Below, piece by piece: positions 485-18,307 of a DNA stretch of 64,000 nucleotides. The notes under the pieces are model-generated. The model ran no database searches, was not told the origin of the DNA, and saw only the letters and a program-made list of their open reading frames with translations. The stretch spans positions 1,364,001 to 1,428,000 of the forward strand of contig NZ_CP020821.1 in assembly GCF_002105755.1 (NCBI RefSeq), in the 5' to 3' direction. Position numbers and translations under genes: made by a program. The stretch is from Mycobacterium colombiense CECT 3035. GTDB taxonomy: Bacteria > Actinomycetota > Actinomycetes > Mycobacteriales > Mycobacteriaceae. The stretch's first letter is position 1, and every line of letters starts with the position of its first letter.

Positions 485-503
485 CCTCGGCGCCCGCCTC
501 GGG

Positions 504-1471: not shown

Positions 1472-1848
1472 CGGCCCCGCGGATCGATGAGGTCGCGGAA
1501 GCCCTCCGACCGGTGGACCGACGCGCCGAGGCTGCGCACTCGCTCGGTCAACGCCCGATCGGACGTCACGACGCGAATGTCGTGCGGCGCAGCGTCGGCC
1601 GCGACCAGCCGGACGATTTCGTCGTCGGCCGAATTCGCGGCCGCCCTGGGCGCGTGCGCAATCTCGACCACCGATGACGCGATGGCCGTCGACGGCGGCC
1701 GTTCAAAAACCACTGTCACCGTTTCTCCTTGACCCGACGCCCATCGATCCAGGCTTTCCACCAATGTGACCATCGCACCGTTGCGGTCTTTCCACCAGCC
1801 GTCGGGACGACTTCCGATCACATTCATGCCGTCGACGATCCAGCGCAC
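1468..1848 (-). CDS. NYN-domain (YacP-like) putative ribonuclease
   Basis: Small protein of 126 aa starting V-R-W-I-V-D-G-M-N-V-I-G, the typical N-terminus of the NYN/PIN-like nuclease fold in which the early Asp binds metal. Further acidic residues (SADDEIVRL, VTSDRALTERV) fit the remaining metal-site positions, and FRDLIDP is near the C-terminus. GTG at 1848 was chosen because it begins exactly at the family motif; an ATG 11 codons upstream is possible. A much longer frame extends upstream, but that part is antisense to the neighbouring gene and is a shadow. It overlaps the nitronate monooxygenase start by 4 bp (ATGA). Substrate unknown. Confidence 0.8.
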   Translation of the reverse strand: MRWIVDGMNVIGSRPDGWWKDRNGAMVTLVESLDRWASGQGETVTVVFERPPSTAIASSVVEIAHAPRAAANSADDEIVRLVAADAAPHDIRVVTSDRALTERVRSLGASVHRSEGFRDLIDPRGR

Positions 1849-1926
1849 AACCCACACCGTAAACGACCTGGCGCGAGCCATTGATTTTCGTTCGAGAAGC
1901 CATCCGTGGTTGATACGGTCACCGTC

Positions 1927-3111: not shown

Positions 3112-3146
3112 GTCGCTGAACCACAGCCGCATCGGCTCCACCGAGC

Positions 3147-3231
3147 GAGCACAACGCGCAAAACCCCGTAATCGTCGGTTATCCCGACTATCGCCTACAA
3201 GCGCGACACCGCTGCGGGCGCGCCGTAACTT
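3147..3231 (+). promoter_or_regulatory. Shared promoter/upstream element, copy A (drives papA-P1)
   Basis: First of four related elements in the locus. It begins GAGCACAACGCGC, continues through an ATCGTCGGTTATCCCGACTA block, then ACAAGCGCGACAC, and ends in a TAACTT -10 box at 3226-3231. A -35-like GCGACA lies at 3203-3208 with a 17-bp spacer. The conserved part extends about 55 bp upstream of the -35, more than a promoter alone needs, so an activator or repressor site is inferred. It lies 117 bp before the papA start. Confidence 0.7.
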
Positions 3232-3347
3232 CGGTTTCACCGAAAACCGAATACGCCGACCGGCCGCAGCGTGAAATCCCTTCCGCGATAGCACTTTGCG
3301 GGCTCGGCGCCGCGCAAGATCGGCATTGCAGAGAACAGGATTCAGAC

Positions 3348-4799
3348 ATGGTCACGCTGGGCAAGATCACCGGATGGCAGCCACCGGCCGGTTCAGTCAC
3401 CACCTGGATGGCCTCACCCGCGGCGCGGGCAGCGGCACGGAACGCTCCGCGAAGCGATCCGCCGCCGAGCTACCAGCGGGCCCGGCACCTGCGCACCGCC
3501 TACGATGCCGCGGCAACGGGCAGGCAGCTTCCGCGGCTGATGGTGGTGGCGTGGGATGTCCCCGGCGTGTGCGACGTCGCGGCCATGACGGCGACGATCA
3601 ATACGCACGTCCGCCGGCATGACACCTACCACGATGCGTTCGAATTCGCCGACGGCGTCGTCGTCCGCCGGACCATCGACGACCCAGGGGTCATCGACTT
3701 CGCCCCAATGGAATTCGGGTACCTGACACCGGAGGAAATCCGCGAGCACGCGTTGACGACGACACCGGGCACGCTCGAGTGGGACTGCTTCACGTTCGGC
3801 ATCGTCCAGCACACCGACCACTTCTCCTTCTACGCCAGCGTCGACCATCTCCACATCGACGGCATGTCCGCCGGCCTGATCTTCTTCGACATCCATTTGA
3901 CGTACCAGGCCATCGCGAACGGAGCCGCGGGGCCGGCCATTTTTCCGCAGACCGCCAGCTATCACGGCTACACCCGACGCCAGCACGACAAGCTGGCGGG
4001 GCTGACCCTGGCGTCCCCCGAGGTCGAGGCCTGGGTCGAGTTCGCCCGCGACACCGCGGGCGAGTGGCCGAGCTTCCCGCTTCCCCTGGGCGCGAACGAG
4101 GTCGACACCGCGGGCGACTTCGTGACCGTCGACCTGCTGGACGCCGCCCAGACGGAGTCGTTCGATACCGCCTGCCACGCGGCAGGGGCCCGGTTCAGCG
4201 GGGGAGTCCTGGCGTGCGCCGCGTTGACCGAGCACGAGTTGACGGGCGACGACACGTTTCACGGTTTCACGCCGTACGACACGCGGACGCCGGCACTGGA
4301 CTCGATGACCGTGGGCTGGTTCGCCAGCCTCATCCCGGTCACCGTGCCGACCGTCGCCGGCTCCTTCCCGGAGGCGGCGCGGGCCGCCCAGGAATCCTTC
4401 GACGGCGCCAGGCATCTCGCCGCCGTCCCGCTCGACCGGGCCATCGAGTTGGCCGACCCGCGTGGAGTGTGGATCCAGCCGCCCACCGCCCGCGCGATGA
4501 TGGTGTCGTTCATCGACTTCCGCGCCGTGCCCGCCGCGGACCTGCTGGACGCCAACAACTTCGGAACCTACGCCGACAACCTGTCGCACGGCGGGATCAA
4601 CCTGTGGATCAACCGCCACGCCGACAAGACCACGGCCACCATCTCGTTCCCGGACAACGCCGAGGCGCGCGCGTCGGTGCAGCACTACCTCGAGGCGCTG
4701 ATCCGGTCGTTCGCCCGGGCAGTCAAGACCACCTCCGACTGGGTGGATGCGGTTGCCGCGCATGCGAACTGCGGCCACCGCACAGCCATCAACGCCTAA
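3348..4799 (+). CDS. PapA-family acyltransferase (condensation-domain fold)
   Basis: Protein of 483 aa resembling the mycobacterial polyketide-associated PapA acyltransferases, which transfer acyl chains onto trehalose or other lipid cores. The catalytic H-x3-D-G motif is VDHLHIDGMS, with His167 and Asp171; the preceding residue is Asp where the classical motif has a second His. The N-terminal W-Q-P-P-A-G and Y-Q-R-A-R-H-L-R stretches are typical of the PapA1/A2/A3 branch. ATG at 3348 follows AGGA by 8 bases. It is followed 22 bp later by P1 with no separate promoter element. Acyl donor and acceptor are unknown, and no PKS gene is in the window. Confidence 0.88.
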   Translation: MVTLGKITGWQPPAGSVTTWMASPAARAAARNAPRSDPPPSYQRARHLRTAYDAAATGRQLPRLMVVAWDVPGVCDVAAMTATINTHVRRHDTYHDAFEFADGVVVRRTIDDPGVIDFAPMEFGYLTPEEIREHALTTTPGTLEWDCFTFGIVQHTDHFSFYASVDHLHIDGMSAGLIFFDIHLTYQAIANGAAGPAIFPQTASYHGYTRRQHDKLAGLTLASPEVEAWVEFARDTAGEWPSFPLPLGANEVDTAGDFVTVDLLDAAQTESFDTACHAAGARFSGGVLACAALTEHELTGDDTFHGFTPYDTRTPALDSMTVGWFASLIPVTVPTVAGSFPEAARAAQESFDGARHLAAVPLDRAIELADPRGVWIQPPTARAMMVSFIDFRAVPAADLLDANNFGTYADNLSHGGINLWINRHADKTTATISFPDNAEARASVQHYLEALIRSFARAVKTTSDWVDAVAAHANCGHRTAINA

Positions 4800-4821
4800 C
4801 ACCGAAGGGAGACCGAGGAAC

Positions 4822-6170
4822 ATGGACAACGTACTCGACCTGGTCGACGACACCTTCTTCCGCGTCGAGCGGGCGGCCGGCGTCACCAACGTGATTCAGT
4901 GCATCTGGGTGTACGACCGGGCCGTCGACATCGACGGCCTGCGCCGGTTCCACCGCCACCTCCAGCGCGGCCGGTTGTCGCGGCGCATCGAACGCTCGCC
5001 CCTGCCGTTCGGGCGCCACCGCTGGGTCGCGCCCGCCGATCAGCCGGCGATCGAGTTCGTCGAAACCGCCCGGCCGCGCGCGGAATTCGACGACTGGTGC
5101 GATGAGCAGTCCAACACCCGGCTGGACGCCGAAAGCGGACCGGGATGGCACCTCGCGGTGCTGCCGTTCACCGATGGCGGCGCCGGGATCAGCGTGATCG
5201 CCTCGCACTGCCTCACCGACGCCGTCGGCCTGTGCCAGGCCCTGGCCGCCGCGGCCGCCGGTGACGACAGCGCGGTCGACTGGCCCGCCGCCGGGTCCCG
5301 CGGGCGCTGGCGGGCGCTGCGCGACGACGCCCGCCAAACCGCGCGCGACATCCCCGCGATCGGGCGCGCCGCCGTCGCCGCCGCACGTTTCCTTCGCGAC
5401 GGCGCCCCGCCGCACCGGCTGCCGCGACGCCGCCCCTCGCCGCCGCCGTCGACGAGAACATCACGCTCCCGGCGGCGACCTTCTTCGTCGACGCCGGCGA
5501 CTGGGACGCCCGCGCCCACTGTCTGGGCGGAACCGGCAACGGGTTGTTCGTCGCGTTGGCGGCCCGCCTCGCCCAGCGGGTCGGGCGCGTGGGAGCGGAC
5601 GGTTCGGTTGCGGTGACGATGGCCGTCAACGAGCGCACCGACGGCGACACCCGCGCCAACGCCATCACCAACGTCGACTTCACGGTGGACCCCGGCCCGG
5701 CGGCCATGGACCTGAGCGGGATTCGCGCCGCGACCAAGCGGGCGCTGGTCCGCTCGCAGCACGAGCCCGACGCACGATGGACCCTGCTGCCGCTGATGCC
5801 GCTGATACCCGAACGACTCGGCAAGCGATGGGTCGGTGCCGCCACCAACAGCGCGGCCACCGTCGGCTCGTCCAACATCGGCGCGGTCGACCCCGCCACG
5901 AATCGCCCGGACGGCAGCGACGCCGATCACTTCGCCATCCGGTCGCTGAGTGCGCGCATGACCACCGGCGTCATGCGCCAGCTCGGCGGCCTGCTGTCCC
6001 TGCTCTCGGGAAGGGTGAACGGACGGGTTTTCGTCTCGGTGGTCTGCTACAACCCGGCCGGCGTCAACTCCGGCCACGCCCTGCGGCAATGCATTTCGAG
6101 CGTGCTGGACGAATTCTCACTCGCGTCGACCCTGGGCTGGCCGTGCGCCGATCCGGTCCGCGGGCGGTGA
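4822..6170 (+). pseudogene. Condensation-fold acyltransferase-like paralogue P1, frameshifted
   Basis: First of five tandem paralogues of about 450 aa related to the WS/DGAT-PapA superfamily. The first half reads from ATG 4822 (MDNVLDLVDDTFF) to about 5395. The second half (DENITLPAATFF, NERTDGDTRANAI, to the TGA at 6168-6170) is in another frame. A one-base deletion near the CCCC run at 5405-5408 explains this: the span is one base short of a codon multiple, and the repaired length of 449 aa matches the siblings. The active-site motif is SHCLTDAVG (His129, Asp133), where the siblings have DG, so it may also be degenerate. It follows papA by 22 bp. If the shift is an assembly error the gene is intact. 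Confidence 0.82.
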
Positions 6171-6255
6171 GCACAATGCGCACAATCAAGCCGATCGCCG
6201 CTAATTCCGACTAACGCCCACAAGCGTGACACCGCGGCCGTCCCCACCCTACGTT
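6169..6255 (+). promoter_or_regulatory. Shared promoter/upstream element, copy B (drives P2)
   Basis: Begins GAGCACAATGCGCA, with the initial GA being the last two bases of the P1 stop codon. It continues ATCGCCGCTAATTCCGACTA, then ACAAGCGTGACAC, and ends in a TACGTT -10 box at 6250-6255. The -35-like GTGACA is at 6226-6231 with an 18-bp spacer, one longer than the other copies. It lies 70 bp before P2. Confidence 0.68.
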
Positions 6256-6324
6256 GAATCTCAATCGAACCACCCAATGCCGTTCGCCCCCATGGCAACT
6301 GGCTCAGGCAAAGGACTCTGCGAC

Positions 6325-7698
6325 ATGGACAACGTTCTCGATTTGGTCGACCAGACCTTCTTTCGCCTCGGGGCGGCGGCCGGCGTCGGTCAGAACGTCT
6401 GGGTGTACAACCGCGAGGTCGACCTCGATGGTCTGCGCCGCTTTCATCGCCATCTGCAGCAGGGCCGGCTGGCACGTCGCATCGAACGCTCACCGCTGCG
6501 GTTCGGCCGGCATCGCTGGGTCGCGCCGAGCGATCGCGACGGGCTCGAGATCGCGGCGCCCCGTCCGCGCGCGGAGTTCGACGCCTGGCTGGGCGAGCAG
6601 GCCGGCATCCCCCTGGACGCCGAGCGGGGGCCCGGATGGCACCTCGCGGTGCTCCCGTTCACCGACGGCGGCGCCGGGGTGAGCTTCGTCGTCACGCATT
6701 GCCTCACCGACGGCATCGGAGGGTGCCTGGCCCTCGTGGAAGCGGCGTGCGGCTACGACCACCCGATGGACGTGCCCGCCGCCGGGTCGCGCCCGCGGGG
6801 GCGGGCACTGCGCGAAGACGCCCGCCAGACCGCACGCGACCTCCCCGCCATCCGGCGAGCCGTGAGTGCCGCGGTCGGCGCGGCGCGATCGGCGCGGCGC
6901 GACCGCCGCGCCGCCGGATCGGTGACCCGGCCCCTTTCTCAGGCCCGTCCCGCGCTGTCGATCGCCGGAGCCGACGACATCGTCACGATTCCGACGGCGG
7001 CCTTCTTTCTGGACGCGGACGAGTGGGACGCGCGCGCAGCCTCACTCGGCGGGACCAGCAACACGCTGCTCGCGGGAGTGGCGGCCCGGCTCGCCCAACG
7101 GGTGGGACGAATCGGCCCGGACGGTTCGGTCGCCCTGGCGCTCCCCGTCAGCGAGCGAACCGCCGACGACACCCGCGCCAACGCCGTCACGATGGTCGAC
7201 ATCAGCGTCGACCCGGCACCCGCGGCGACGGACCTGCGCGACATCCGCGCCACGACCAAGCAGGCGCTGATCCGCCACCGGGAGGTGCCCGACGAGCGCC
7301 GCACATTGCTGCCGCTGGTGCCCCTGCTGCCCGAGCGGCTGATCAAGAAAATGGTCGGCGTGGCCACGGGCGGCGCGACGAACGTCGTGGTCGCCTCCAA
7401 CATCGGCGCGGCCCCGCCGGCGGCCAACCGGCCGGACGGCACCGACGCCGACTACGTCGCGCTGCTGTCTCGCTACCCGGGCCTGACCCGGGCGATGATG
7501 GACCAGCTCGGCGGCCTGATGGTGGTGCACTCCGCGACGGTGCACCGCCAGGTCTTCATCTCGGTGCTCGCCTATCAGCCGGGCCGGCTGACTTCGAATG
7601 ACGGTTTGCGACAGCACGTTTCGAGCGCCCTGGACGACTTCTCGCTCACCGCCACCACCGGCTGGAGCGCGATGAACCGGTCGCCGGCGGCGCGGTAG
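6325..7698 (+). CDS. Condensation-fold acyltransferase-like paralogue P2
   Basis: Protein of 457 aa in the tandem family. It starts MDNVLDLVDQTFFRLG, reminiscent of the L-D-x-x-F-F opening of wax ester/diacylglycerol acyltransferases. It has the H-x3-D-G motif as THCLTDGIGG (His125, Asp129), then VSERTADDTRANAVT in the second half, where the fold's latch region is expected. Its N-terminal region is four residues shorter than the siblings', between the opening and the QNVWVYNR block. ATG 6325 has an AAAGGA site 10 bases upstream. It is a single-gene unit between elements B and C. Acyltransfer is inferred from the fold and motif only. Confidence 0.8.
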   Translation: MDNVLDLVDQTFFRLGAAAGVGQNVWVYNREVDLDGLRRFHRHLQQGRLARRIERSPLRFGRHRWVAPSDRDGLEIAAPRPRAEFDAWLGEQAGIPLDAERGPGWHLAVLPFTDGGAGVSFVVTHCLTDGIGGCLALVEAACGYDHPMDVPAAGSRPRGRALREDARQTARDLPAIRRAVSAAVGAARSARRDRRAAGSVTRPLSQARPALSIAGADDIVTIPTAAFFLDADEWDARAASLGGTSNTLLAGVAARLAQRVGRIGPDGSVALALPVSERTADDTRANAVTMVDISVDPAPAATDLRDIRATTKQALIRHREVPDERRTLLPLVPLLPERLIKKMVGVATGGATNVVVASNIGAAPPAANRPDGTDADYVALLSRYPGLTRAMMDQLGGLMVVHSATVHRQVFISVLAYQPGRLTSNDGLRQHVSSALDDFSLTATTGWSAMNRSPAAR

Positions 7699-7728
7699 AC
7701 GGCGCCGAAAGCCGCCGATTCCGCGGGT

Positions 7729-7813
7729 GAGCACAATGCGCGAAACCGGGGAATCGCGGCTAAGCCCCACTATCAAGCACAAGCGCGACGGGCGGCGCCC
7801 GGCGCCATACGGT
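7729..7813 (+). promoter_or_regulatory. Shared promoter/upstream element, copy C (drives P3-P4-P5)
   Basis: Begins GAGCACAATGCGCGAAACC, keeps ATCGCGGCTAAGCCCCACTA and CACAAGCGCGAC, and ends in a TACGGT -10 box at 7808-7813. The -35-like GCGACG is at 7785-7790 with a 17-bp spacer. The distance from the first G to the -10 is 79 bp, as in copies A and D. It lies 74 bp before the P3 start. Confidence 0.68.
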
Positions 7814-7887
7814 GAATCCAAGCGAGGCAAAAGCACTTCGTCCCACCGAATCCGGCAGCGCGACAGGCGAAAAGGAGCTGAAGAACG

Positions 7888-9243
7888 ATGGGCAACGTAC
7901 TCGACCTGTATGACCAGGCCTACTTCGACTTCGAGCGGGCGGCCGGAGCCACCTGCGCGTTGCAGTGCGTGTGGGTGTACGACCGCGGGATCGACATCGA
8001 CGGCCTGCGTTCGTTCCACCACCGGCTGCGGCGGGGACGGTTGGCGAGGCGCATGGAACGCTCGCCCCTGCCATTCGCCCGGCATCGCTGGGTCGCGGCC
8101 GGCAACCAGGCCGACCTTGAGATCGCCGAAACGCCGCGCGCACGCGAGGATTTCGACACCTGGCTGGCCGAGCAGGCCGACACCCCGCTGGACGCCGAGC
8201 ACGGGCCCGGATGGCACCTGGCGGTGCTGCCGTTCACCGACGGCGGCGCCGGGGTGAGCCTGGTCGTCTCGCACTGCCTCATCGACGGCGTCGGCTTGTG
8301 CGAGGCGCTGACGGAAGCCGCTACCGGACAACATCACCCGGACGACTGGCCGGCGGCCGCGTCGCGCCCGCGGTGGCAGGCCCTGCGCGAAGACGCCCGC
8401 CAGACCGCGCGCGACCTTCCCGCCATCGGCCGCGCCGTCGTCGCCGCAGCGCGATTCGCTCGACGCGACCCCGCCGCGGCGCCGATGGCCACGCCGGCCG
8501 CGCCGTGCTGCGGACCCGGCGAAAAAGCCACTCTGTCAACGGCAACCATCTTTCTCGATGCCGATCAGTGGGACGCCCGCGCGCGGGCGCTCGGAGGAAC
8601 CAGCAACACCCTGCTCGCGGCGGTGGCGGCCCGCCTCGCCCAGCGGGTGGGGCGGCTCACCGCGGACGGGCGGGCCACTCCGTCGATTCCGGTCAACGAG
8701 CGCACCGCCGGCGACACCCGCGCCAACGCCATCACCAACGTCGACATCACTGTCGACCCCGCACTCGCGGACACGGACCTGCGGGAAATCCGGGCGGCAA
8801 CCAAGCAGGCGCTGATCCGGCACCGCGACGTGCCCGACGAGCGGTGGGCCCTGCTGCCCCTGGTTCCGCTGCTGCCTCGGCGGTTGGTCAGGCGACTGGT
8901 CGGCGTGGCCACCGGCGGTACCACCAACGTCGTGTCGTCCAACCTGGGCGTCCTGCACGCCGCCGCCGTCCGGCCGGACGGCACCGAAGCCGACCACTTC
9001 GCCATGAAGTCCCTCTATCCGGGCGTGACCACCGCGATAATGCGCCGCACCGGCGGGGTTTTGGCGTTGCTGTCCGGAAGGGTGCACCGACAGATCTTCG
9101 TCTCGGTGCTTGCGCATCAGCCGGGCCGCCCCAACTCGAACAACATTCTGCGGCATGACATCTCGACCGTTCTGAGCGACTTCTCGCTCACCGCCTCGAT
9201 CGGCTGGCCGGGCCCCGTGCCGGCGGCCGACCTGGCGGCGTAG
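7888..9243 (+). CDS. Condensation-fold acyltransferase-like paralogue P3
   Basis: Protein of 451 aa in the same family, starting MGNVLDLYDQAYFDFERAAG. The catalytic motif is SHCLIDGVGLCEAL, with His129 and Asp133. The second half has ATIFLDADQWDARA, GGTSNTLLAAVAARLAQRVG and PVNERTAGDTRANAI, as in the siblings. AAAGGAG lies 12 bases before the ATG. It is the first gene of a three-gene unit with P4 and P5 (29- and 31-bp gaps). An Ala/Pro-rich linker at about residues 190-210 joins the two halves. It could be a WS/DGAT-like or a PapA-like enzyme; the substrate is unknown. Confidence 0.82.
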   Translation: MGNVLDLYDQAYFDFERAAGATCALQCVWVYDRGIDIDGLRSFHHRLRRGRLARRMERSPLPFARHRWVAAGNQADLEIAETPRAREDFDTWLAEQADTPLDAEHGPGWHLAVLPFTDGGAGVSLVVSHCLIDGVGLCEALTEAATGQHHPDDWPAAASRPRWQALREDARQTARDLPAIGRAVVAAARFARRDPAAAPMATPAAPCCGPGEKATLSTATIFLDADQWDARARALGGTSNTLLAAVAARLAQRVGRLTADGRATPSIPVNERTAGDTRANAITNVDITVDPALADTDLREIRAATKQALIRHRDVPDERWALLPLVPLLPRRLVRRLVGVATGGTTNVVSSNLGVLHAAAVRPDGTEADHFAMKSLYPGVTTAIMRRTGGVLALLSGRVHRQIFVSVLAHQPGRPNSNNILRHDISTVLSDFSLTASIGWPGPVPAADLAA

Positions 9244-9272
9244 GCCAGCGAGGAAGAAAGGACCCCACGACA

Positions 9273-10634
9273 ATGAGCAACGTACTCGACCTGTTCGACC
9301 AGACGGTGTTCCTGGGCGAGCGAGCGACCGGCGCCACCAACCTGCTGCAGTGCGTGTGGATCTACCAGCGCGCGATCGACATCGACGGCCTGCGCCGGTT
9401 CCATCGCCACCTGGCGCAGGGGCGGTTGTCCCGCCGCATCGAGCCGTCGCCCCTGCCGTTCGGGCGCCATCGCTGGGTCGCACCGAAGGGGCAGTCCGAC
9501 CTGGAGATCGTCGCGGCGCCGCGCTCGCGGGAGGACCTCGACGCCTGGCTGGGCGAGCAAGCCGACACCCCGCTCGACGCCGAGAACGGACCCGGCTGGC
9601 ACCTCGCGGTGCTGCCGTTCACCGACGGCGGCGCGGCGGTGAGCCTGGTCATCTCGCACTGCCTCACCGACGGCGTGGGGCTGTGCGAGGCGTTGGCGGA
9701 CGCGGCGGCCGGACGCCGCGACCCGATCACCTGGCCCGCGGCCGGGTCGCGCGGGTGGTGGCGGGCCGTGCGCGAGGACGCCCACCAAACCGTGCGCGAC
9801 GTCCCGGGTATCGGGCGCGCGGTCGTGGCCGCGGCGCGCAGGGCGCGGCGTCCCAGCGCCGGCGCCGCGGCACCGCTCGCGGAGCCGCCTGTCCTCTCCG
9901 GCAGCGCCGACGAGCGCGTCACCCTGCCGACGGCGACGATCTTCGTCGACGCCGACGAATGGGACGCTCGCGCGGAGTCACTGGGCGGGACCGGCAACAC
10001 GCTGCTCGCGGGACTGGCGGCGCAGCTGGCCCTTCGGGTGGGACGCATCGCGGCGGACGGCTCGGTCGCCGTGACCATGCCCGTCAACGAACGCGCCGCC
10101 GCCGACACGCGCGCCAACGCCATCATCAATGTCGACTTCGCCGTCGACCCCGCACCCGCCACGACGGATCTGGGCGAGATCCGGGCCACCATCAAGCAGG
10201 CGCTGATCCGCTCGCACGACGAGACGAACGCGCGGTGGGAGCTGCTGCACCTTGCTCCGCTGTTGCCGCAGTGGCTGGTCAGGCGGTGCGTGGGCGTTTC
10301 GGCTAACGGCGCGGCCAGCGTCATCTCGTCCAACCTCGGTGCGGTCGACCCGGCCTCGCGCCGGCCGGACGGAACCGCCGCCGACCACTTCGTCATGAAG
10401 CCGCTCGCCCCGGGCGTGACCAGGGGGGTCATGCACCGGCTCGGCGGCTTGCTGGTGTTGCTGTCGGGGAGAACGAATGGGCGCGTCTTCGTTTCGGTCC
10501 TGGCGTATCAGCCGGGCGGTTCCAACTCGAATTCCGCTTTGGCGCAGACCCTTTCGAGCACACTGAGCGACTTCGCGCTCACCGCCACGCTCGGTTGGCC
10601 GGACCCGGTGCCGGTTGCCGGCCTGACGGCGTAG
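9273..10634 (+). CDS. Condensation-fold acyltransferase-like paralogue P4
   Basis: Protein of 453 aa, starting MSNVLDLFDQTVFLGERATG. The motif SHCLTDGVGLCEAL has His129 and Asp133, the same positions as P1, P3 and P5. The linker after V-V-A-A-A-R-R-A-R-R is Ala/Pro-rich and variable, followed by the conserved TLPTATIFVDADEWDARAESLGG block (read as two adjoining pieces) and PVNERAAADTRANAI. A GAAAGGA ribosome site lies upstream of the ATG. No promoter element separates it from P3 or P5, so it is expected to be co-transcribed with them. It is closest in sequence style to P5 (both carry GERAT, TNLLQCVWIY and RRDPITWPAAG). Confidence 0.83.
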   Translation: MSNVLDLFDQTVFLGERATGATNLLQCVWIYQRAIDIDGLRRFHRHLAQGRLSRRIEPSPLPFGRHRWVAPKGQSDLEIVAAPRSREDLDAWLGEQADTPLDAENGPGWHLAVLPFTDGGAAVSLVISHCLTDGVGLCEALADAAAGRRDPITWPAAGSRGWWRAVREDAHQTVRDVPGIGRAVVAAARRARRPSAGAAAPLAEPPVLSGSADERVTLPTATIFVDADEWDARAESLGGTGNTLLAGLAAQLALRVGRIAADGSVAVTMPVNERAAADTRANAIINVDFAVDPAPATTDLGEIRATIKQALIRSHDETNARWELLHLAPLLPQWLVRRCVGVSANGAASVISSNLGAVDPASRRPDGTAADHFVMKPLAPGVTRGVMHRLGGLLVLLSGRTNGRVFVSVLAYQPGGSNSNSALAQTLSSTLSDFALTATLGWPDPVPVAGLTA

Positions 10635-10665
10635 GCAACCGAGGCAGACAAGGATCGTGAGAAAA

Positions 10666-12042
10666 ATGGACAACGTCATCGACCTCGTCGACCAGAGCGC
10701 GTTTCTGGGCGAGCGGGCGACCGCAACCACCAACCTGCTGCAGTGCGTGTGGATCTACCACCACGCGATCGACATCGACGGCCTTCGGCAGTTCCACCGG
10801 CATCTACAGCGGGGACGGCTGTCCCGCCGCATCGAGCGGTCAGCCTTGCCGTTCGGCCGCCATCGCTGGGTCTCACCCGGCACCCAGTCCGACCTGGAGA
10901 TCGTCGAAAGCCCCCGCCCACGCGAAGAATTCGAGGCCTGGCTCACCGAGCAGGCCGGCACCCCGCTGGATTCCGAGCAGGGTCCCGGCTGGCACCTCGC
11001 GGTGCTGCCGTTCACCGACGGCGGCGCGGGCGTGAGCTTTGTCATCTCGCACAGCCTCATCGACGGCGTCGGATTGTGCGAGGCGCTGGCGGACGCGGCC
11101 AGCGGCCGCCGCGACCCGATCACCTGGCCCGCCGCCGGGACGCGCCCGCGTTGGCGAGCGCTGCGCGAGGACGTCGGCCAGACCGCGCGCGACGTCCCCG
11201 GCATCGGCCGCGCCGTCGTGGCGGGGGCACGATTCGCCCGCCGCAACCGCCGCGGCTCCGGCGCCGAGGCGCCCAGCGCGCCGCGCGCGCCGTTCGCCGG
11301 ACCTGACGCACGCGTCGATCTCCCGAAGGTGACGTTCTTCGTCGACGCCGGCGAGTGGGATGTCCGCGCGCGGGCGCTCGACGGAACCGGCAACGCGCTC
11401 CTCGCGGGATTCGCGGGCCGCCTTGCCCAACGGATGGGACGGGTCGCCGCGGACGGCGCGGCCACGGTGGCGATACCGGTCAACGAGCGCACCGACGGCG
11501 ATACTCGCGCCAACGCGATCACCAGTGTCGACATCACGATCGACCCCGCGGGCGCGGCGGCGGATCTGCGCGAGATCCGGGCCGCGATCAAGCAAGCGCT
11601 GATCCGCCATCAGGAGGTCCCCGACGAGCGATTGGCGCTGCTGCCACTGGCCCCGCTGATGCCGCGGTGGCTGGTCCGGCGCATGGCCGGCGTGGCCCTC
11701 GGCGGCGCCACCACCAGCGGATCGTCCAACCTCGGTGCCGTCAGCCCGGCCGCCAACCGGCCGGATGGCACGGATGCCGACCACTTTGCCGTCAGGTTGC
11801 TCGCCCCGGGGGTCACCAAGGCGACGGTGCACCGGACCGGTGGACTGCTGGGCCTGCTCTCGGGACGGGCCCACGGACGGGTCTTCGTCTCGGTCGTCGC
11901 GTATGAGCTGGGCCGCCCCAATTCGGATGACGCGTTACGGCAGCATATTTCGAGCGTTCTGGAGGACTTCTCGCTCACCGCGACGATCGGCTGGCCGTGC
12001 CCGGCGCGAGCACAATGCGCAGAACCGCAAGATCGCCGGTAA
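10666..12042 (+). CDS. Condensation-fold acyltransferase-like paralogue P5
   Basis: Last of the five paralogues, 458 aa, starting MDNVIDLVDQSAFLGERATA. The active-site motif is SHSLIDGVG, with His129 and Asp133; the Cys following His in the siblings is Ser here. AAGGA lies 10 bases upstream of ATG 10666, and a GTG three codons earlier is an alternative. The C-terminus reads A-R-A-Q-C-A-E-P-Q-D-R-R, unlike any sibling, because the last codons run through the first block of promoter element D. The ancestral stop was probably lost or moved. Function is inferred as acyl transfer. Confidence 0.82.
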   Translation: MDNVIDLVDQSAFLGERATATTNLLQCVWIYHHAIDIDGLRQFHRHLQRGRLSRRIERSALPFGRHRWVSPGTQSDLEIVESPRPREEFEAWLTEQAGTPLDSEQGPGWHLAVLPFTDGGAGVSFVISHSLIDGVGLCEALADAASGRRDPITWPAAGTRPRWRALREDVGQTARDVPGIGRAVVAGARFARRNRRGSGAEAPSAPRAPFAGPDARVDLPKVTFFVDAGEWDVRARALDGTGNALLAGFAGRLAQRMGRVAADGAATVAIPVNERTDGDTRANAITSVDITIDPAGAAADLREIRAAIKQALIRHQEVPDERLALLPLAPLMPRWLVRRMAGVALGGATTSGSSNLGAVSPAANRPDGTDADHFAVRLLAPGVTKATVHRTGGLLGLLSGRAHGRVFVSVVAYELGRPNSDDALRQHISSVLEDFSLTATIGWPCPARAQCAEPQDRR

Positions 12043-12092
12043 CGGCGACTATCGCTGACAAGCGCGACACGGGTGTCGCGGCGCCATAGATT
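12008..12092 (+). promoter_or_regulatory. Shared promoter/upstream element, copy D (drives mmpL)
   Basis: Begins GAGCACAATGCGCAGAACC inside the P5 coding end, then has ATCGCCGGTAACGGCGACTA, ACAAGCGCGACAC and a TAGATT -10 box at 12087-12092. The -35-like GCGACA is at 12064-12069 with a 17-bp spacer. Aligned base for base with copy A it agrees at about 63 of 85 positions, with no gap. It lies 33 bp before the mmpL ATG. Confidence 0.7.
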
Positions 12093-12125
12093 CGGTGTCG
12101 ACGATCGTCGACGAAGGGTTTCACC

Positions 12126-14972
12126 ATGATCAAACGTCCAGGCGCGCTTGACATCTCGGCACCTTCCGGCGTGTTCGCGGCGTTGGGTCGCTGCTCCGTG
12201 CGCGCGCCCTGGCTCATCATCGCCGCGTGGGTCGCCGCGGTAGCCGTGCTGACCGTTGCCTTCCCGGCGTTGACGAAGGTGGTCGAAGGCCAGACGGTAC
12301 AGCCGCTGCCGCCGCAGGCCATGGCCGCAACGGAGCAGATGGCCAAGGACTTCGGTGAATCCGGGCAGAACATCCTGATTGTCGTGCTCACCGACGGCCG
12401 GGGCCTGCAACCGGCCGACGAGGACGCCTACCGCGAGCTGGCCGCCACATTTCGCGGCGAGACCAAAGACGTGGCCGGCGTGCAGGACATCGTCGCCACA
12501 CCCGCGCTGCGGTCGTTGATGGTCAGCGCGGACCACAAAGCGTTCTACCTCGCGGTGATCCTGCGGGCCCCCGTCGGTTCGCCCGAGTCGTCGCAGGCCT
12601 ACCAGCGCATCACGGAGATCGCCAAGCGCGCCACCGCGGGCACGCCCTTGGCCGCACAGGTGACGGGACAGGGTGCGATGGCGGGCGACCTGGCGATCGT
12701 CACCGCTCACGACATGCAGACGATCGAGACGGTCACCGCATTGTTCGTCCTGATCATCCTGCTGGTGATCTACCGGCGACCCGTGACCGTGCTGCTGCCG
12801 TTGATCACCATCGGCGTTTCGGTCGCGTCGGCCCAGGGCCTGGTGTCCGGACTCGTTCAGCTCGGGCTCGGGGTGTCCTCGATGACGATCGCCTTGATGA
12901 CGGCGATGATCTTCGGCGCCGGTACCGACTACGCCGTCTTCTTGATCAGCCGCTACCACGAGTGCCTCCGCTCCGGCATCGACTCCGACCTGGCCGTGCA
13001 AAAGGCACTGAGCTCGATCGGTGAGGTGATCGCCGCGTCGGCGGCCACCGTTGCCGTCACCTTCTTCGGCATGGTGTTCACCCGCCTACCCGCGTTCACG
13101 AGTATCGGCCCGGCGCTGGCGGTTTCGATCGGGGTCGCGTTCCTTGCCGCGATAACGCTGCTGCCCGCCGTGCTCGTTCTCGCCGGCCGGCGCGGATGGG
13201 TCACGCCGCGTGCGGCGCTCACCGGCCGCCTGTGGCAGCGCTCTGCCGTTGCGCTGGTGCGTCGGCCCAAAGCGCATCTGCTGGGGAGCCTCGCGGTGTT
13301 GCTCACGCTGGCCGGATGCGCGGCGTTCCTGCGGCCCACGTTCGACGACCGGCTGCAACTGCCGCGGTCGGCACCGAGCAATGCCGGCTTTTCGACGATG
13401 GCGCAACACTTTTCGGAAAGTATGTTGCTGCCGCAGTACATCTACGTCCGGTCGCCGCGCGACCTGCGGACGCCGCGGGCGCTGGCCGACCTGGACCAGA
13501 TGGCTCAGCGCGTCGCTCAGCTGCCCAATATCGCTGCGGTGCGCGGCATCACCCGACCCGGCGGCCAGCCGTTGGATCAGGCCAAGATCAGCTTTCAAGC
13601 CGGGGAGGTCGGCGGCAAGCTCGAAGACGCCTCGACACAGATCAACGACAGGACGAGTGACCTCGACGCGCTGACCAACGGCGCAGACCAACTGGCGACG
13701 GCCCTCGCGCGGGTGCGCGATGAAATCCGCGGCGCCAGTGGGCCGATGACCAGCGTCACCGCGACACTGAACCAGGTGCAGCAGCAGCTCGCCACCGCGG
13801 CGAGCGCCCTGGACAACGTCCGTGGGCTCACGAACGGGTCCGTCTCGGCACTCGCCAACAGCGTCGTCGCGGCGGCGGGCCCGATGTTCGACGGTTTGAC
13901 CAAGCAGTCGGCGGTTCCGGGCGTGCAGGCGGCCGTGCAAAGTCTGAGCGCTCAATTGGCAACGGCGACTGGCGGTCTGCGGGCGCTGCGTGGCAACGTC
14001 GCCGGCATGCAGCGCACGATCGCGGGAATGCAGGCAGCGGCCGATCAGCTCGCCGATGGCAGCCGGCGGCTGGCCGACGGCGTCCGGACACTCGTCGACA
14101 AGGTCAAGCAGATGGGCCTGGGCATGAACCAGGCGGCCGACCTGCTGCTGTCGGTGAAGCGTGACGCCACCGCGCCCTCGATGTCGGGCATGTACATCCC
14201 GCCCCAGGTGCTCACCTCGGACGAATTCAAGAACGCCGCGAAGCTGTTCTTCTCGCCCGACGGCCATTCGGTGCGCTATCTGGTCGAATCGAGATTCACC
14301 CCGTTCAGTCCGCCCGCGATGGACCAGGTTTCCTCGATTCTGGACACGGCGCGCGGCGCCCAGCCCAACACCGCGCTGGCGGACGCATCGATCTCCATGG
14401 TCGGGCTCAACGGGATGTACAGCACGCTGCGCGACTACTACGACGACGACTTCGGGCTGATCGTCGTCATGACGCTGCTCATCGTCTTCGCAATCCTGGT
14501 CATCTTGCTCCGCGCGATCGTGGCGCCGCTGTATCTGATTGTCTCCGTGGCGATCTCGTACCTGTCGGCGGTGGGGATGGGCGTCGCCTTCTTCCAGTTC
14601 CTGCTGCATCAGGCGATGTCGTGGAACGTGCAGGCCACCGCCTTCATCGTGCTGGTCGCCGTCGGGGCGGACTATAACCTGCTGCTGATCACGCGAATTC
14701 GCGAAGAGTCGCGCACGGGCATCCGCTCCGGCATCGTCCGGGCGGTCCGTTCCACGGGTGGTGTCATCACCTCGGCAGGCATAATCTTCGCCGCCTCGAT
14801 GTTCGGCCTGCTGTTCGGCAGCCTGGCCACCATGGTGCAGACGGGCCTGGTCATCGGCGTGGGCCTGTTGATCGACACCTTTGTGGTTCGCACCGTCACC
14901 GTGCCGGCCATGGCGGCGCTGGTCGGCAAGGCCAACTGGTGGCCGGCCAAGAGGATCAACACCGGCCGCTAG
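12126..14972 (+). CDS. MmpL-family RND lipid transporter
   Basis: Inner-membrane, proton-driven exporter of 948 aa with the usual duplicated layout. TM1 (APWLIIAAWVAAVAVLTVAF) is followed by a periplasmic porter domain and five helices, then a central loop with helical coiled-coil character (about residues 490-690), and a second six-helix set. The proton-relay Asp-Tyr pairs are present: GAGTDYAVFLISRY (Asp268-Tyr269) and VGADYNLLLITR (Asp849-Tyr850). There is no MmpS partner in the window. Element D gives it its own promoter of the same type as the acyltransferase units upstream, so co-regulation and export of their lipid product are inferred. The stop nearly abuts the convergent response regulator (2-bp gap). 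Confidence 0.92.
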   Translation: MIKRPGALDISAPSGVFAALGRCSVRAPWLIIAAWVAAVAVLTVAFPALTKVVEGQTVQPLPPQAMAATEQMAKDFGESGQNILIVVLTDGRGLQPADEDAYRELAATFRGETKDVAGVQDIVATPALRSLMVSADHKAFYLAVILRAPVGSPESSQAYQRITEIAKRATAGTPLAAQVTGQGAMAGDLAIVTAHDMQTIETVTALFVLIILLVIYRRPVTVLLPLITIGVSVASAQGLVSGLVQLGLGVSSMTIALMTAMIFGAGTDYAVFLISRYHECLRSGIDSDLAVQKALSSIGEVIAASAATVAVTFFGMVFTRLPAFTSIGPALAVSIGVAFLAAITLLPAVLVLAGRRGWVTPRAALTGRLWQRSAVALVRRPKAHLLGSLAVLLTLAGCAAFLRPTFDDRLQLPRSAPSNAGFSTMAQHFSESMLLPQYIYVRSPRDLRTPRALADLDQMAQRVAQLPNIAAVRGITRPGGQPLDQAKISFQAGEVGGKLEDASTQINDRTSDLDALTNGADQLATALARVRDEIRGASGPMTSVTATLNQVQQQLATAASALDNVRGLTNGSVSALANSVVAAAGPMFDGLTKQSAVPGVQAAVQSLSAQLATATGGLRALRGNVAGMQRTIAGMQAAADQLADGSRRLADGVRTLVDKVKQMGLGMNQAADLLLSVKRDATAPSMSGMYIPPQVLTSDEFKNAAKLFFSPDGHSVRYLVESRFTPFSPPAMDQVSSILDTARGAQPNTALADASISMVGLNGMYSTLRDYYDDDFGLIVVMTLLIVFAILVILLRAIVAPLYLIVSVAISYLSAVGMGVAFFQFLLHQAMSWNVQATAFIVLVAVGADYNLLLITRIREESRTGIRSGIVRAVRSTGGVITSAGIIFAASMFGLLFGSLATMVQTGLVIGVGLLIDTFVVRTVTVPAMAALVGKANWWPAKRINTGR

Positions 14973-14974: not shown

Positions 14975-15658
14975 TCAGCGCGGCGGCCCGGCCGGCCGCT
15001 TGGCGGCGGCCGCGAACTCTTGCTCGGGTCGTCCGGTCGTCCCGTACCGCAGGCCGACGGTGACGTCGCGGGCGGTGGCCAGCGCCGCCAGATAGCGTTG
15101 CGCGGTCGCCCGAGATATTCCGATCGCGGCGGAGACCTCGGCCGCCGACATCGGCCGCTGGGACGTTCGTAATGCCTGCAGCACAAGCTGTTTGGTCGAT
15201 GAGGCCGCGATGGTGGCGGTTGGCGGGGGAGCGACCCTGGGCCGCAGCGCGTCGAGTGCCGCGTCCACGTCGCCGGCGGTCAGGTTGGGGCCGGCCAACA
15301 CCTTGCGGTAGCGCGCGTAGCCGGCGAGCCGCGCGGCCAGCTCCGGGGGTGCGAACGGCTTGACGAGGTAGCTCAGCGCCCCGGCGGACAGCGCGGCCCG
15401 GATCGTCGCCGCCTCGGTGGCCGCGCTCAGCACCATGCTGTCGCCGTCACGTTCGCGGACAAAGTCGACTCCCGACCCGTCAGGCAGGTAGACGTCGACC
15501 AGGGCCAGGTCGACGGGATCGGCCTTGCGCGCGGCCTCGAGCGTGTTCGCCGTGCCGCTCACCGCGAAACCGGGAAGCGTGTTGACCACCTCGGCGTGTA
15601 GATTCGCCACGCGGAAGTCGTCGTCAATCACCAGCACCGTCAGCTCTGGGTCGCCCAT
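14975..15658 (-). CDS. CitB/DcuR-type response regulator
   Basis: Protein of 227 aa with an N-terminal receiver domain (VLVIDDDFRVANLH acidic pocket, phospho-acceptor Asp55 in LALVDVYLPDG, Thr/Ala switch SAATEAATIRAAL, Lys in YLVKPF) and a C-terminal helix-turn-helix (MSAAEVSAAIGISRATAQRYL). This architecture belongs to the CitB/DpiA/DcuR family, which usually controls carboxylate transport. ATG 15658 lies 19 bp inside the kinase gene, so the pair is translationally coupled. It is a candidate regulator of the neighbouring acyltransferase/mmpL elements, by position only. Confidence 0.9.
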   Translation of the reverse strand: MGDPELTVLVIDDDFRVANLHAEVVNTLPGFAVSGTANTLEAARKADPVDLALVDVYLPDGSGVDFVRERDGDSMVLSAATEAATIRAALSAGALSYLVKPFAPPELAARLAGYARYRKVLAGPNLTAGDVDAALDALRPRVAPPPTATIAASSTKQLVLQALRTSQRPMSAAEVSAAIGISRATAQRYLAALATARDVTVGLRYGTTGRPEQEFAAAAKRPAGPPR

Positions 15659-17325
15659 TGCTCCTCCTCCACCATCACGCCCGGCAGCCGGGCGATGAAT
15701 TCCGCACCGCGCAGCCGCAGCTCGGCGTCGCCGGCGCTGGCCAGCCACAGGTCACCGCCCAGCGCGCGAGAAATCTGGCGCGACAACGCAAGCCCGATGC
15801 CGCGGCCGCCCGGTATCCCCGAGTCGGGCTTGGTCGTGGTGCCCTCGGTGAAGAGGTGATCGACGAAATCGGGTGCCACGCCGCCGCCGCTGTCGGCGAC
15901 GGTGATGTGCAGCGTCGAACCATTCTGCAGCAGTTCGACTTCCACTTCCTTCACGTCGTTGCCACCCGTCCGGGCCGCATCGATCGCGTTGTCGAGCAAG
16001 TTGCCCAGCACGGTGGTGACATCGACGGGCAGCCCGAGACGGCCGGACACCCAGGTGTTTTCACCGATCGTCATCGTCACCCCGGCCTCGCGGGCCGCCG
16101 CGGCCTTGGCCGCCAGAAATGCTTGCAGGTAGGCATCGCGGATGGCCTCGATGCCGGGCAGCGCGGATCCCAGCGGGCCCGACCCGAGAATTTCTTCCAG
16201 GTATTGCAATCCCTCGTCCACATGACCGCCCTGCAACAGCCCGTTCAGCAGGTGCAGGCGGTTGGCGAATTCGTGGCGTTGTGCGCGCAGCACCGTGCTC
16301 ATCACCTGCACCGCGTCGAGTTGCCGCGTGAGGGATTCCACGTCCGTTCGGTCCCGCACCACCAAAACCGTTCCCAGCGCCCGCCCTTCGCGCGATACCG
16401 GCCGGGCCGAGACGACGATGATGCGCTCGCCCACGCTGGCCAACACCGGGGTCGAATCGGCGGCCTCGAACACGTCGAGAACCCGTGGGGTCAGGCCGAT
16501 CTGGTCGACCGGCCGCCCCGTCTTGTTGGAGATCTCCAGGAGCCGGCATGCCTCGTCGTTGACGAACGTGGTGTAGCCGGACGTGTCCGCCGCGAGAACG
16601 CCTTCGCCGATTCCCTGCAGCACCGCCGCCTGCGTTCGCACCAGCCCGGTGATCTCCGCCGGCCGCAGACCCAGTGTCAGCCCCCGCCAGCGCCGGGCCA
16701 ATACCGCCGAGCCGGCGACAGCGATGACCAGCAGGGCACCGGCCATCGCGGCCAATACGCGGAGGTTCCTCGAGAACTGCTCGTCGAATGCCTTGGTGGA
16801 CAGGCCGACGATGACCACCCCCAGCACCCGGTCGGAACCCGATTCGAACACCGGGATTTTCGCCACGATCGCGCGTCCCATATAGGTGTCGTCATGTGAT
16901 GTCACCTCGTGCCCGGCCAGCGGAGCCGCGATGTCGGCGGCAACGTGGGCTGCCAACCTGTCGCGCTGGGGGCACGCGACCCTGATGCCGCTCGCATTGG
17001 CGATGACGACGAACAACACGTGGGTGCGTTGTTCGACCCGGGATGCCACGCCCTGAATCGGACCCGTGGCGAGTTCGTCCACCAGCTCGGGGGTCGGGCT
17101 CAACGGGCCGCTGTCGTAGCGCGCGATGTTGGCGATCACCGTGGGGGAGGAGGCGACCACGCGGGCCATATCGGTGGCGTGGACGTGATATTGGCTGTCC
17201 AGGCGCGCCCGGTTGAATGCGGCGAAGAGCCCGAAAGCGACGATCAACGTCAGCGTCACGATGACGAGCTGCAGCAGCATCACCTGGGTGGCGAGTCGCA
17301 AGTCGATGCGACCCCTGGGGGCCAT
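15640..17325 (-). CDS. CitA/DcuS-type sensor histidine kinase
   Basis: Membrane kinase of 561 aa. It has TM1 at about residues 14-36, an extracytoplasmic sCache/PAS-like sensor (about 40-190, with VIGLSTKAFDEQF-like end VVIVGLSTKAFDEQF), TM2 at about 192-214, a cytoplasmic PAS (about 225-330) and a SpoOB-type phospho-acceptor helix with His351 in LRAQRHEFANRLHLLNGLLQ. The ATPase domain has DNAIDAA (N box), DSGGGV (G1) and GGRGIGLAL (G2). The set is typical of sensors for citrate, malate or similar anions. It is co-transcribed with the response regulator. The start faces the epimerase gene across an 79-bp divergent region. Confidence 0.92.
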   Translation of the reverse strand: MAPRGRIDLRLATQVMLLQLVIVTLTLIVAFGLFAAFNRARLDSQYHVHATDMARVVASSPTVIANIARYDSGPLSPTPELVDELATGPIQGVASRVEQRTHVLFVVIANASGIRVACPQRDRLAAHVAADIAAPLAGHEVTSHDDTYMGRAIVAKIPVFESGSDRVLGVVIVGLSTKAFDEQFSRNLRVLAAMAGALLVIAVAGSAVLARRWRGLTLGLRPAEITGLVRTQAAVLQGIGEGVLAADTSGYTTFVNDEACRLLEISNKTGRPVDQIGLTPRVLDVFEAADSTPVLASVGERIIVVSARPVSREGRALGTVLVVRDRTDVESLTRQLDAVQVMSTVLRAQRHEFANRLHLLNGLLQGGHVDEGLQYLEEILGSGPLGSALPGIEAIRDAYLQAFLAAKAAAAREAGVTMTIGENTWVSGRLGLPVDVTTVLGNLLDNAIDAARTGGNDVKEVEVELLQNGSTLHITVADSGGGVAPDFVDHLFTEGTTTKPDSGIPGGRGIGLALSRQISRALGGDLWLASAGDAELRLRGAEFIARLPGVMVEEEQWATQS

Positions 17326-17345
17326 GGACAGACACTACCGCGCAG

Positions 17346-17397
17346 GTGAGCAGAATGCGCGAAAGCATGATCATCTCCGTCGCGATGTCGCTACCAT
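17346..17397 (+). promoter_or_regulatory. Partial copy of the locus element plus TACCAT -10 box
   Basis: GGTGAGCAGAATGCGCGAAA at 17346-17365 matches the first block of element C at 19 of 20 bases. The middle blocks and GCGAC -35 are absent. A TACCAT hexamer at 17392-17397 lies seven bases before the epimerase ATG, which would make that transcript leaderless. The site lies in the divergent region between the sensor kinase and the epimerase and could act on either. Confidence 0.5.
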
Positions 17398-17404
17398 TGC
17401 GCGC

Positions 17405-18307
17405 ATGCGCGGCTCAAAAATCCTGATCACCGGCCCGACCGGTCAGATCGCCACCCCCATCGCCCGGGCGCTTGCCGCCGACAACGAGGTCTGGGGAATC
17501 GCCCGGTTCACCGATCCCGTCGCGCGAGAAGGTCTCGAGAAGGCCGGGATTCGTTGCGAGAAGGTGAATCTGGCGGCCGGCGACTTCGCGGCGCTGCCAA
17601 CGGATTTCGACTATGTCCTGAACCTGGCGGTGGCCAAGAGCGGAAGCTGGGACAAGGACCTGGCGGCCAACGCGGAGTCGGTCGGCCTGCTGATGGCCCA
17701 CTGCCGCAACGCGAAGGCCTTCCTGCACTGCTCGTCGGCCGCCGTATACGACCCGCCCGACGACGACCCCCGCAGCGAGCGATCCGCGCTGGGCGACAAC
17801 CACAAGCCGTTGTTCCCGACCTACTCCATCTCCAAGATCGCCGGCGAGGTCGTCGCCCGGTCGGTGGCGCGCGTCCTCGGAGTGCCCACCACGATCGCAA
17901 GGCTCAACGTCCCCTACGGCGACAATGGCGGGTGGCCGTTCTATCACATGGAGATGATGTTGGGCGGCATCCCGATTCCCGTTCCACCCGGCGAACCCGC
18001 CCGCTACAACCCCATTCACGAGGACGACATCATCGCGACCATCCCCAAGCTGCTCGAGGTCGCGTCCGTCCCGGCGACCACGGTCAACTGGTGCGGCGAC
18101 CAGACGGTCAGCCTGCAGGAGTGGTGCGACTACCTCGGCTCGCTCGTCGGCAGGGAGCCGATCTTCGAGGCGAGCGAACAGGCGCTGCGCGGCAATCCCA
18201 CCACCATCGACCGGATGCACGAACTGATCGGCGGCACCTCGGTCGACTGGCGCGACGGAATCCGCCGCATGGCGGCCAAATTCCATCCCGAGCTCGTCGG
18301 CGTCTAG
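17405..18307 (+). CDS. NAD(P)-dependent epimerase/dehydratase (extended SDR)
   Basis: Protein of 300 aa with the N-terminal nucleotide-binding motif ILITGPTGQIATPIA, central HCSSAAVYD and active-site Y-S-I-S-K (Tyr/Lys pair), which mark an extended short-chain dehydrogenase such as sugar-nucleotide epimerases. The C-terminal part (RYNPIHEDDIIATIPKLLE) is typical of substrate-binding domains. It starts with ATG 17405, only seven bases after a plausible -10 box. It is first in a likely three-gene operon with the AraC regulator (14-bp gap) and the VOC protein. Substrate is not identifiable. Confidence 0.85.
   Translation: MRGSKILITGPTGQIATPIARALAADNEVWGIARFTDPVAREGLEKAGIRCEKVNLAAGDFAALPTDFDYVLNLAVAKSGSWDKDLAANAESVGLLMAHCRNAKAFLHCSSAAVYDPPDDDPRSERSALGDNHKPLFPTYSISKIAGEVVARSVARVLGVPTTIARLNVPYGDNGGWPFYHMEMMLGGIPIPVPPGEPARYNPIHEDDIIATIPKLLEVASVPATTVNWCGDQTVSLQEWCDYLGSLVGREPIFEASEQALRGNPTTIDRMHELIGGTSVDWRDGIRRMAAKFHPELVGV

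Follow-up and report, generated by a model that had tools for sequence, protein, structure and literature searches.

We analyzed a stretch of 64,000 nucleotides from the genome of Mycobacterium colombiense CECT 3035, referred to here as the window (G000:C1:1364001-1428000; genome of 5.58 Mb in one contig), in which an upstream element of about 85 bp recurs along a putative envelope-lipid locus. On the plus strand the locus runs from an acyl-CoA dehydrogenase gene through papA, the acyltransferase-like genes P1 to P5 and mmpL; citB and citA follow on the minus strand, after which come, again on the plus strand, an epimerase gene and one for a short AraC-type protein. From its architecture, conservation and distribution among genomes, the element is very probably an operator fused to a sigma-A-type promoter and bound by the CitB/DcuR-family regulator of the neighboring citAB pair. 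The features are given below in window coordinates, except for the last.

Element A, 3147..3231, plus strand: predicted operator-promoter of papA-P1 (E 5e-25), -10 box TAACTT at 3226-3231
papA, 3348..4799, plus strand: condensation-domain acyltransferase, closest solved relative PapA2 (6aef, E 1e-124)
P1, 4822..6170, plus strand: acyltransferase-like, frame broken (4822-5616, then 5544-6170 in another frame)
Element B, 6169..6255, plus strand: predicted operator-promoter of P2, -10 box TACGTT at 6250-6255
P2, 6325..7698, plus strand: acyltransferase-like, paralogue of P4
Element C, 7729..7813, plus strand: predicted operator-promoter of P3-P4-P5, -10 box TACGGT at 7808-7813
P3, 7888..9243, plus strand: acyltransferase-like, paralogue of P4
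P4, 9273..10634, plus strand: WS/DGAT-like acyltransferase (PF03007, E 1e-5)
P5, 10666..12042, plus strand: WS/DGAT-like acyltransferase (PF03007 just under the cut-off)
Element D, 12008..12092, plus strand: predicted operator-promoter of mmpL, -10 box TAGATT at 12087-12092
mmpL, 12126..14972, plus strand: MMPL-family transporter
citB, 14975..15658, minus strand: response regulator of the CitB/DcuR family, proposed binder of the elements
citA, 15640..17325, minus strand: sensor kinase of the CitA/DcuS family (sCache_3_2, SPOB_a, HATPase_c)
Half element, 17345..17413, plus strand: in the citA/epimerase intergenic region, directed away from citA, candidate citAB autoregulatory site
Epimerase and AraC-type helix-turn-helix (HTH) protein, 17405-18774, plus strand: downstream of the half element; the AraC-type protein at 18322-18774 is short (150 codons)
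Fifth full element, genome positions 1123010-1123104 (L124:5012-5108): 244 kb upstream of copy A

P1 to P5 are tandem paralogues, with P2, P3 and P5 at 61-67% identity to P4. The closest named relatives of P4 are from M. colombiense strains (87-88% identity), and a search of the PDB at E 0.001 returned no sequence relative of it. Intergenic gaps of 22 bp (papA-P1), 29 bp (P3-P4) and 31 bp (P4-P5) bear out the earlier statement, made from the sequence alone, that P1, P4 and P5 sit 22-31 bp after their neighbors. Read from its own start, the P1 frame ends at 5616 (264 codons), and the gene has 447-462 codons in five relatives; the interruption is either decay or a sequence error.

The original prediction placed four copies of the element at 3147, 6169, 7729 and 12008, and in profile searches these stand far beyond chance. 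With one copy left out, a profile of the other three recovers the fourth in the window at E values from 7e-11 (C) to 2.7e-18 (D). A 43-row profile, consisting of the 65 elements of alignment A5 without those that come from the window or from 18 closely related loci, finds all four at E 6.5e-14 to 7.6e-19, and its next matches in the window are the half copy (2e-4) and then one at E 4.8. Single short motifs are at chance level in the window, with 16 matches to GAGCACAANGCGC at up to 2 mismatches (13.8 expected) and 5 to ACAAGCGCGAC at up to 1 mismatch (3.0 expected), neither significant singly, so the full profile alone was used. Copies A and D agree without gaps at 63 of 85 bases, the figure first estimated, and copy B matches the others at just 28-29 of 85 because of one extra base near its beginning.

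The TANNNT box begins 79 bases from the first base in A, C and D and 81 in B, and the -35 to -10 spacer is 17 bp in A, C and D and 18 bp in B, all within the ranges predicted (79-81 and 17-18 bp). This combination is that of a sigma-A-type promoter with a weak -35 hexamer; A and D have GCGACA there, B has GTGACA and C has GCGACG. The GCGACA-like hexamer is thus present at the spacing that had been claimed for it, but it merges with a third box of the putative regulator and is not free-standing. The stop codon that closes the P1 frame (6168-6170) runs into element B. The end of P5 (stop at 12042) falls inside element D, 34 bases in, as it does in L027, L028 and L036.

Information content along the element is concentrated in the blocks TGAGCACAAT, GCGCARAA, ATCG, CG..T(A/T), GCGCACAAGCGnG and CnTAnnTT, and a unit GMGCAnAA is common to the first two blocks and the last box. 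The upstream pair, at about -91 to -75, consists of two 8-bp direct repeats with a single base between them (consensus GAGCACAA, T, GCGCARAA), and a third unit (consensus GCGCACAA, then GCGnG) lies at about -45 to -38, merging with the usual place of the -35, where the start is assumed to be 7 bases below the -10. In element A these are GAGCACAA (3147-3154), GCGCAAAA (3156-3163) and the distal unit GCCTACAA (3193-3200). The layout of a CitB-family operator, with direct repeats of about 8 bp in tandem above the promoter, is thus found at profile positions 5-12, 14-21 and 51-58. Spacing is nearly invariant: unit 3 lies 29 or 30 from the -10 in all 61 measurable rows, and units 1 and 3 are 44-46 apart (on the script's scale) in 57 of 64, the other 7 giving 34-36, probably through misplaced matches.

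Conservation is likewise concentrated in the boxes. Element A is kept at the same place in 11 relatives, and the blocks above the -35, whose loss in related species would have counted against the original prediction, are retained at the same positions across 12 genomes. In mean pairwise identity over the 12 genomes, the boxes at position A score 0.75-0.95, compared to 0.08-0.55 for the upstream and 0.37-0.80 for the downstream flank. At position D the contrast is weaker, with boxes at 0.72-0.96, an upstream flank, mostly P5 coding DNA, at 0.17-0.67, and a downstream flank at up to 0.73.

The element is not confined to this locus. Scanning this genome and its relatives, as had been suggested, was done with two profiles, R1 from copies A to D and R2 from the broader set of 65 elements. 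R1 has matches, some of them weak, in 60 of 148 Mycobacterium genomes at E 0.01, and R2 in 48 of the 148 at E 0.001, the largest number of copies in one genome being 11. Among 30 scattered copies (L124-L143), 26 are directed at a called gene of their own strand that begins no more than 150 bp away, the exceptions being L128, L130, L137 and L142. First genes that could be classed encode alpha/beta hydrolases, MFS transporters (one of the metabolite/H+ symporter type), PapA, MmpL, a PE protein, an ABC ATPase and a D-Ala ligase-like protein; several others encode short proteins without a Pfam match. In L125, L126, L133, L135 and L138 the first called genes are open reading frames of 78-105 codons, and none of those scanned has a Pfam match. 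Back-to-back elements stand between divergent genes at L136:9960-10165 and L127:4485-4719. Judged from these positions, the element is not peculiar to the papA locus and appears as a regulon promoter in about a third of the sampled genus. The repeats that had been read as a locus duplicating its own control region are real, but they are better understood as several promoters of a wider regulon.

In the M. colombiense genome, R2 identifies five full elements (E 2.8e-17 to 1.5e-21) and a half copy (E 0.003), all remaining matches lying at E 0.048 or above; the count of four thus held for the locus but had missed the half copy and the fifth full one. The fifth is followed, 47 bp on, by an alpha/beta-hydrolase gene, with MarR-type and methyltransferase-like genes next. 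Relatives of this hydrolase (53-65%) occur in the papA neighborhoods of L029, L038, L040, L093 and L136, and on that ground the unlinked copy may serve the same pathway as the papA locus. A genome scan with GAGCANAANGCGC gave 11 matches (2 for the reversed control pattern), six of them outside the window; one of the six is the fifth element, and the other five, none of which appears in the profile search, were judged by eye to be chance. The half element, with scores of E 0.03, 2e-4 with the 43-row profile and 0.003 with R2, retains the paired units GAGCAGAA T GCGCGAAA and lacks both the distal unit and the usual -10 spacing. Weak matches occur at its place in 8 relatives, and in other genera full elements stand there, so it fits a degenerate autoregulatory site.

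Evidence for the identity of the regulator comes from co-inheritance. The element (R2) is present in 41 of the 42 Mycobacterium genomes that carry a CitB orthologue (at least 59% identity; next best matches at most 45%) and in 7 of the 106 that do not (p 4.6e-28; 148 genomes), and the sole CitB-bearing genome without a match, G126, is 63% complete. Non-orthologous CitB matches do not predict the element, since any match at E 1e-10 is found in 141 of the 148. The same linkage is seen locally among 68 fetched loci of relatives, some of them stretches of just 3 kb: all 13 P-type loci with detected citAB carry elements (E at most 1e-5), compared to 2 of the 55 others (p 3e-12). The seven element-bearing genomes without an orthologue can be accounted for in part. 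G070 has a divergent citAB about 2 kb from its element, with CitB 41-45% identical (L187), and in G008 citA lies at a contig edge, one gene from the element (L190). G045 (L188) and G134 (L192) have incomplete elements beside genes that flank the locus elsewhere, and the stretch fetched from each lacks the papA-to-citA block. Both have the appearance of scars left by deletion of that block, which would fit loss of the regulator along with its targets. As a control, mmpL matches of at least 66% (limited to E 1e-200) were counted in 19 genomes, four of them partial, and 17 of the 19 carry the element. MmpL was rejected as the linked factor, as 31 of 48 element-bearing genomes have no mmpL match.

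Related sites accompany citAB beyond the genus. In a search with the DNA profile only, over 121 genomes of the order, own genus included, 15 genomes of other genera had matches at E 0.01, all weak, and all 15 places were inspected. Eight of these matches lie between citA and a divergent gene (G214, G207, G151, G172, G228, G150, G252 and G211) and one (G193) about 3 kb from citAB. A family-level CitA search gave 46 loci in other genera at 39-66% identity, one split match being left out of the count, with paralogues set apart at 31-38%. Of the 46 citAB loci 23 were examined with a paired-unit core pattern, and in a form relaxed after inspection of the sequences it is found in 22, in the promoter region of the gene upstream of citA or in the gap between citA and a divergent gene (18 of 19 loci with a gene upstream of citA and 4 of 4 divergent loci, L283 being counted with 2 mismatches). 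Equal lengths upstream of paralogous citA genes have it in 2 of 20, with no R2 match below E 0.1; under a stricter pattern, adopted earlier, the figures are 21 of 23 and 1 of 20. The background of the core motif is 3 matches in 97.8 kb (0.03 per kb), and two further matches fall in orthologous stretches outside promoters (L266, L202). The one miss, L273, still has the second unit and the GCACTCAAGCG stretch, and several loci, such as L282, have units at a 9-bp period and a shorter gap to the last unit. The 700 bp just upstream of citA contain few matches even in the orthologous group because another gene intervenes, and that scan is not a fair control. In the loci where the gene upstream of citA was scanned (L264, L266, L282), it proved to encode a transporter, and the ten target-operon proteins scanned comprise five CitMHS citrate transporters, one MFS protein, one ABC ATPase, two NMT1-type binding proteins and one CoA-transferase.

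Several observations weigh against CitB as the reader of the element. Six of the 15 out-of-genus profile matches have no citAB nearby (G178, G233, G148, G219, G177 and G216), the outgroup pattern owes its 22 of 23 to the relaxation just described, and that count covers half of the 46 loci, with 4 of the 26 top-ranking outgroup loci and 19 other citA genes lying outside it. Within the genus, L035 and L040 have elements with citAB absent from the fetched stretch. G146, a complete genome, holds two full copies (L185, L186) with no CitB above 40% identity and is unexplained; another regulator may read these copies, or they may be relics. Likewise unexplained are the elements without CitB in G038 (a weak match) and G003 (72% complete). 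Co-inheritance by itself would also be compatible with another protein inherited together with citAB.

The two proteins have the composition expected of such a system. CitB (a 257-residue open reading frame) combines a receiver domain (PF00072 at 38-141) with a C-terminal helix-turn-helix (HTH_IclR/HTH_11 at 187-224) unlike those of the OmpR or LuxR types, and its best NCBIfam matches are DcuR and DpiA. CitA has the CitA/DcuS architecture, with sCache_3_2 at 39-186, SPOB_a at 335-379 and HATPase_c at 433-548. No PAS domain appears in its Pfam listing; residues 218-327 align to structure 2w0n, which we take to be the PAS domain of DcuS. Scores are below the curated cut-offs (98.5 bits against 262 for CitB as DcuR equivalog; 269 against 520 for CitA in its best match, the DcuS/MalK family), so neither protein is a DcuS or DcuR equivalog.

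The sensor pocket sets this lineage apart from the other orthologues compared. Citrate is described as bound by R66 and H69 in Klebsiella pneumoniae CitA (PMC3353115), and R107 and H110 are described as the ligand residues of DcuS (PMC12772337). The window CitA was aligned to outgroup CitA, whose RxxHP was aligned in turn to LRYSHP of DcuS and IRYAHP of 8bgb; residues 113-119 of the window protein read GIRVACP, with the Arg kept and the His replaced by Cys. This His is replaced in all 13 distinct closest loci (the window, L027, L028, L033, L034, L036, L041, L045, L046, L048, L058, L060 and L196), by Cys in 1 (the window), Ser in 2 and Asp in 10, and it is His in the other mycobacterial and outgroup CitA orthologues listed. 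Judged from this residue and its surroundings, the signal may have changed in this lineage. Loci L093/L136, L131 and L078 have elements at papA, and partly at mmpL, with the pocket His intact, and recruitment of the targets was therefore probably earlier than the change in the sensor.

With good confidence, the regulator of the element can now be named as CitB. In the mechanism we propose, a ligand at the membrane sensor CitA would lead to phosphorylation of CitB, which would then bind cooperatively to the upstream pair and the promoter-proximal unit and recruit RNA polymerase. Activation would proceed from the proximal unit over the -35, aided by the upstream pair, so that one signal might jointly activate papA-P1, P2, P3-P5, mmpL and the unlinked alpha/beta-hydrolase gene. 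We propose activation by phosphorylated CitB on the strength of two precedents. MaeR, a CitB-family regulator of Lactobacillus casei, is described as binding three direct repeats of 8 bp, of which the first and second are separated by 1 bp, with binding most impaired by mutation of those first two (PMC5457438), and in Corynebacterium glutamicum CitAB is described as required for expression of citH and tctCBA, CitB binding both promoters (PMC3353115). It is unlikely, in our estimate, that CitB acts instead as a repressor, or at a mixed operator whose proximal unit would obstruct the -35 while its upstream pair would lift the obstruction. A third unit over the -35 occupies a place used by repressors as well as activators, and the half copy beside citA does without that unit, but the dependence of citH and tctCBA on CitAB in C. 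glutamicum (PMC3353115) argues for activation, and the poor -35 hexamer favors a need for it.

Other readings replace CitB or dispense with a regulator altogether. The original prediction had named two local candidates, and its CitB-type protein was the one that tracked the element. That some other local regulator binds the element, the AraC-HTH protein being the foremost candidate, strikes us as very doubtful. The epimerase-AraC operon is preceded by the half element, 8 relatives have weak matches at the same place, and AraC orthologues are associated with the element, if weakly (present in 29 of 60 genomes with an orthologue and 19 of 88 without, p 0.001). The split by CitB is much sharper, however: 31 of the 60 AraC-bearing genomes have no element, 19 of the 48 element-bearing genomes have no AraC orthologue, and other genera have the element by citA or in the promoter region of the gene upstream of it. 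AraC was rejected as the regulator on co-inheritance. Highly improbable, too, is the idea that the repeats are leftovers of tandem duplication or of a small mobile sequence, recently descended and without regulatory function, even though P1 to P5 are tandem paralogues and copies A to D resemble each other more than they do distant copies. Copies stand upstream of unrelated genes, in different places and in many genomes, their boxes are better kept than upstream flanks and adjacent coding DNA, their spacings are nearly fixed, and the element is co-inherited with citAB and not with the paralogues or recent descent. A plasmid search with window positions 3100-3350 gave no match, no search aimed at insertion traces having been made. 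The length of the conserved stretch (about 85-100 bp) and its strong conservation might suggest an RNA element, such as a riboswitch or leader, to which we assign a negligible chance: nearly all conserved positions lie above the -10, outside any transcript that it would start, and an Rfam scan of window positions 1-20000 found no family at gathering score.

Binding by CitB thus being our preferred account of the element, the history of the system can be sketched. Its ancestral targets would have been carboxylate (citrate-type) transporters and citAB itself; in mycobacteria the regulon would have been extended to envelope-lipid genes, with the sensor pocket altered afterwards in this lineage. 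We put at roughly even chances the broader proposal that a citrate-uptake system was rewired in mycobacteria to surface-lipid acylation and export, and that this lineage, having lost the pocket His with the operator intact, responds to a new small-molecule signal. If so, an old metabolic regulator would switch surface lipid composition in response to a new signal, and the locus would offer a test case of the reassignment of a metabolic switch, its operator kept, its targets changed and its sensor pocket altered. More immediately, the analysis predicts a DNA-binding site for actinobacterial CitB regulators and a regulon that would be present in 48 of the 148 Mycobacterium genomes sampled, about a third, and names a predicted regulator for an envelope-lipid locus. 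No paper on the site or on a mycobacterial CitAB regulon was among the matches listed by title and abstract beginning in the open PMC literature, a body without subscription papers and preprints.

Precedent within the family is close, and what is new is the proposed reassignment of a citrate-type system to envelope-lipid genes. C. glutamicum CitAB is an actinobacterial system of the same sensor and regulator families, with citAB divergent from a citrate transporter gene, and a 2012 review gives its exact CitB motif as unidentified (PMC3353115). The same arrangement occurs at L283, a locus in a 2.7-Mb genome of the family, where citA is divergent from a CitMHS gene and the core motif has 2 mismatches. 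The C. glutamicum system targets citrate transporters, whereas the pair described here has acyltransferase and MmpL genes as its predicted targets, and an altered sensor pocket. The MaeKR operator of L. casei, as described, has the same layout as the element, with the third repeat distal, but its repeats are AT-rich (TTATT(A/T)AA), serve a malate promoter and are unrelated in unit sequence (PMC5457438). Enterobacterial DcuSR provides the best NCBIfam matches for both proteins, and its RxxHP is kept in most orthologues examined; the present pair differs in scoring below both equivalog cut-offs. The acyltrehalose and sulfolipid loci of mycobacteria, which are controlled by PhoP, likewise combine a PapA2-like acyltransferase and an MmpL protein in one cluster. 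Unlike them, the M. colombiense locus has five tandem acyltransferase-like paralogues between papA and mmpL, and its predicted control is of the CitAB type.

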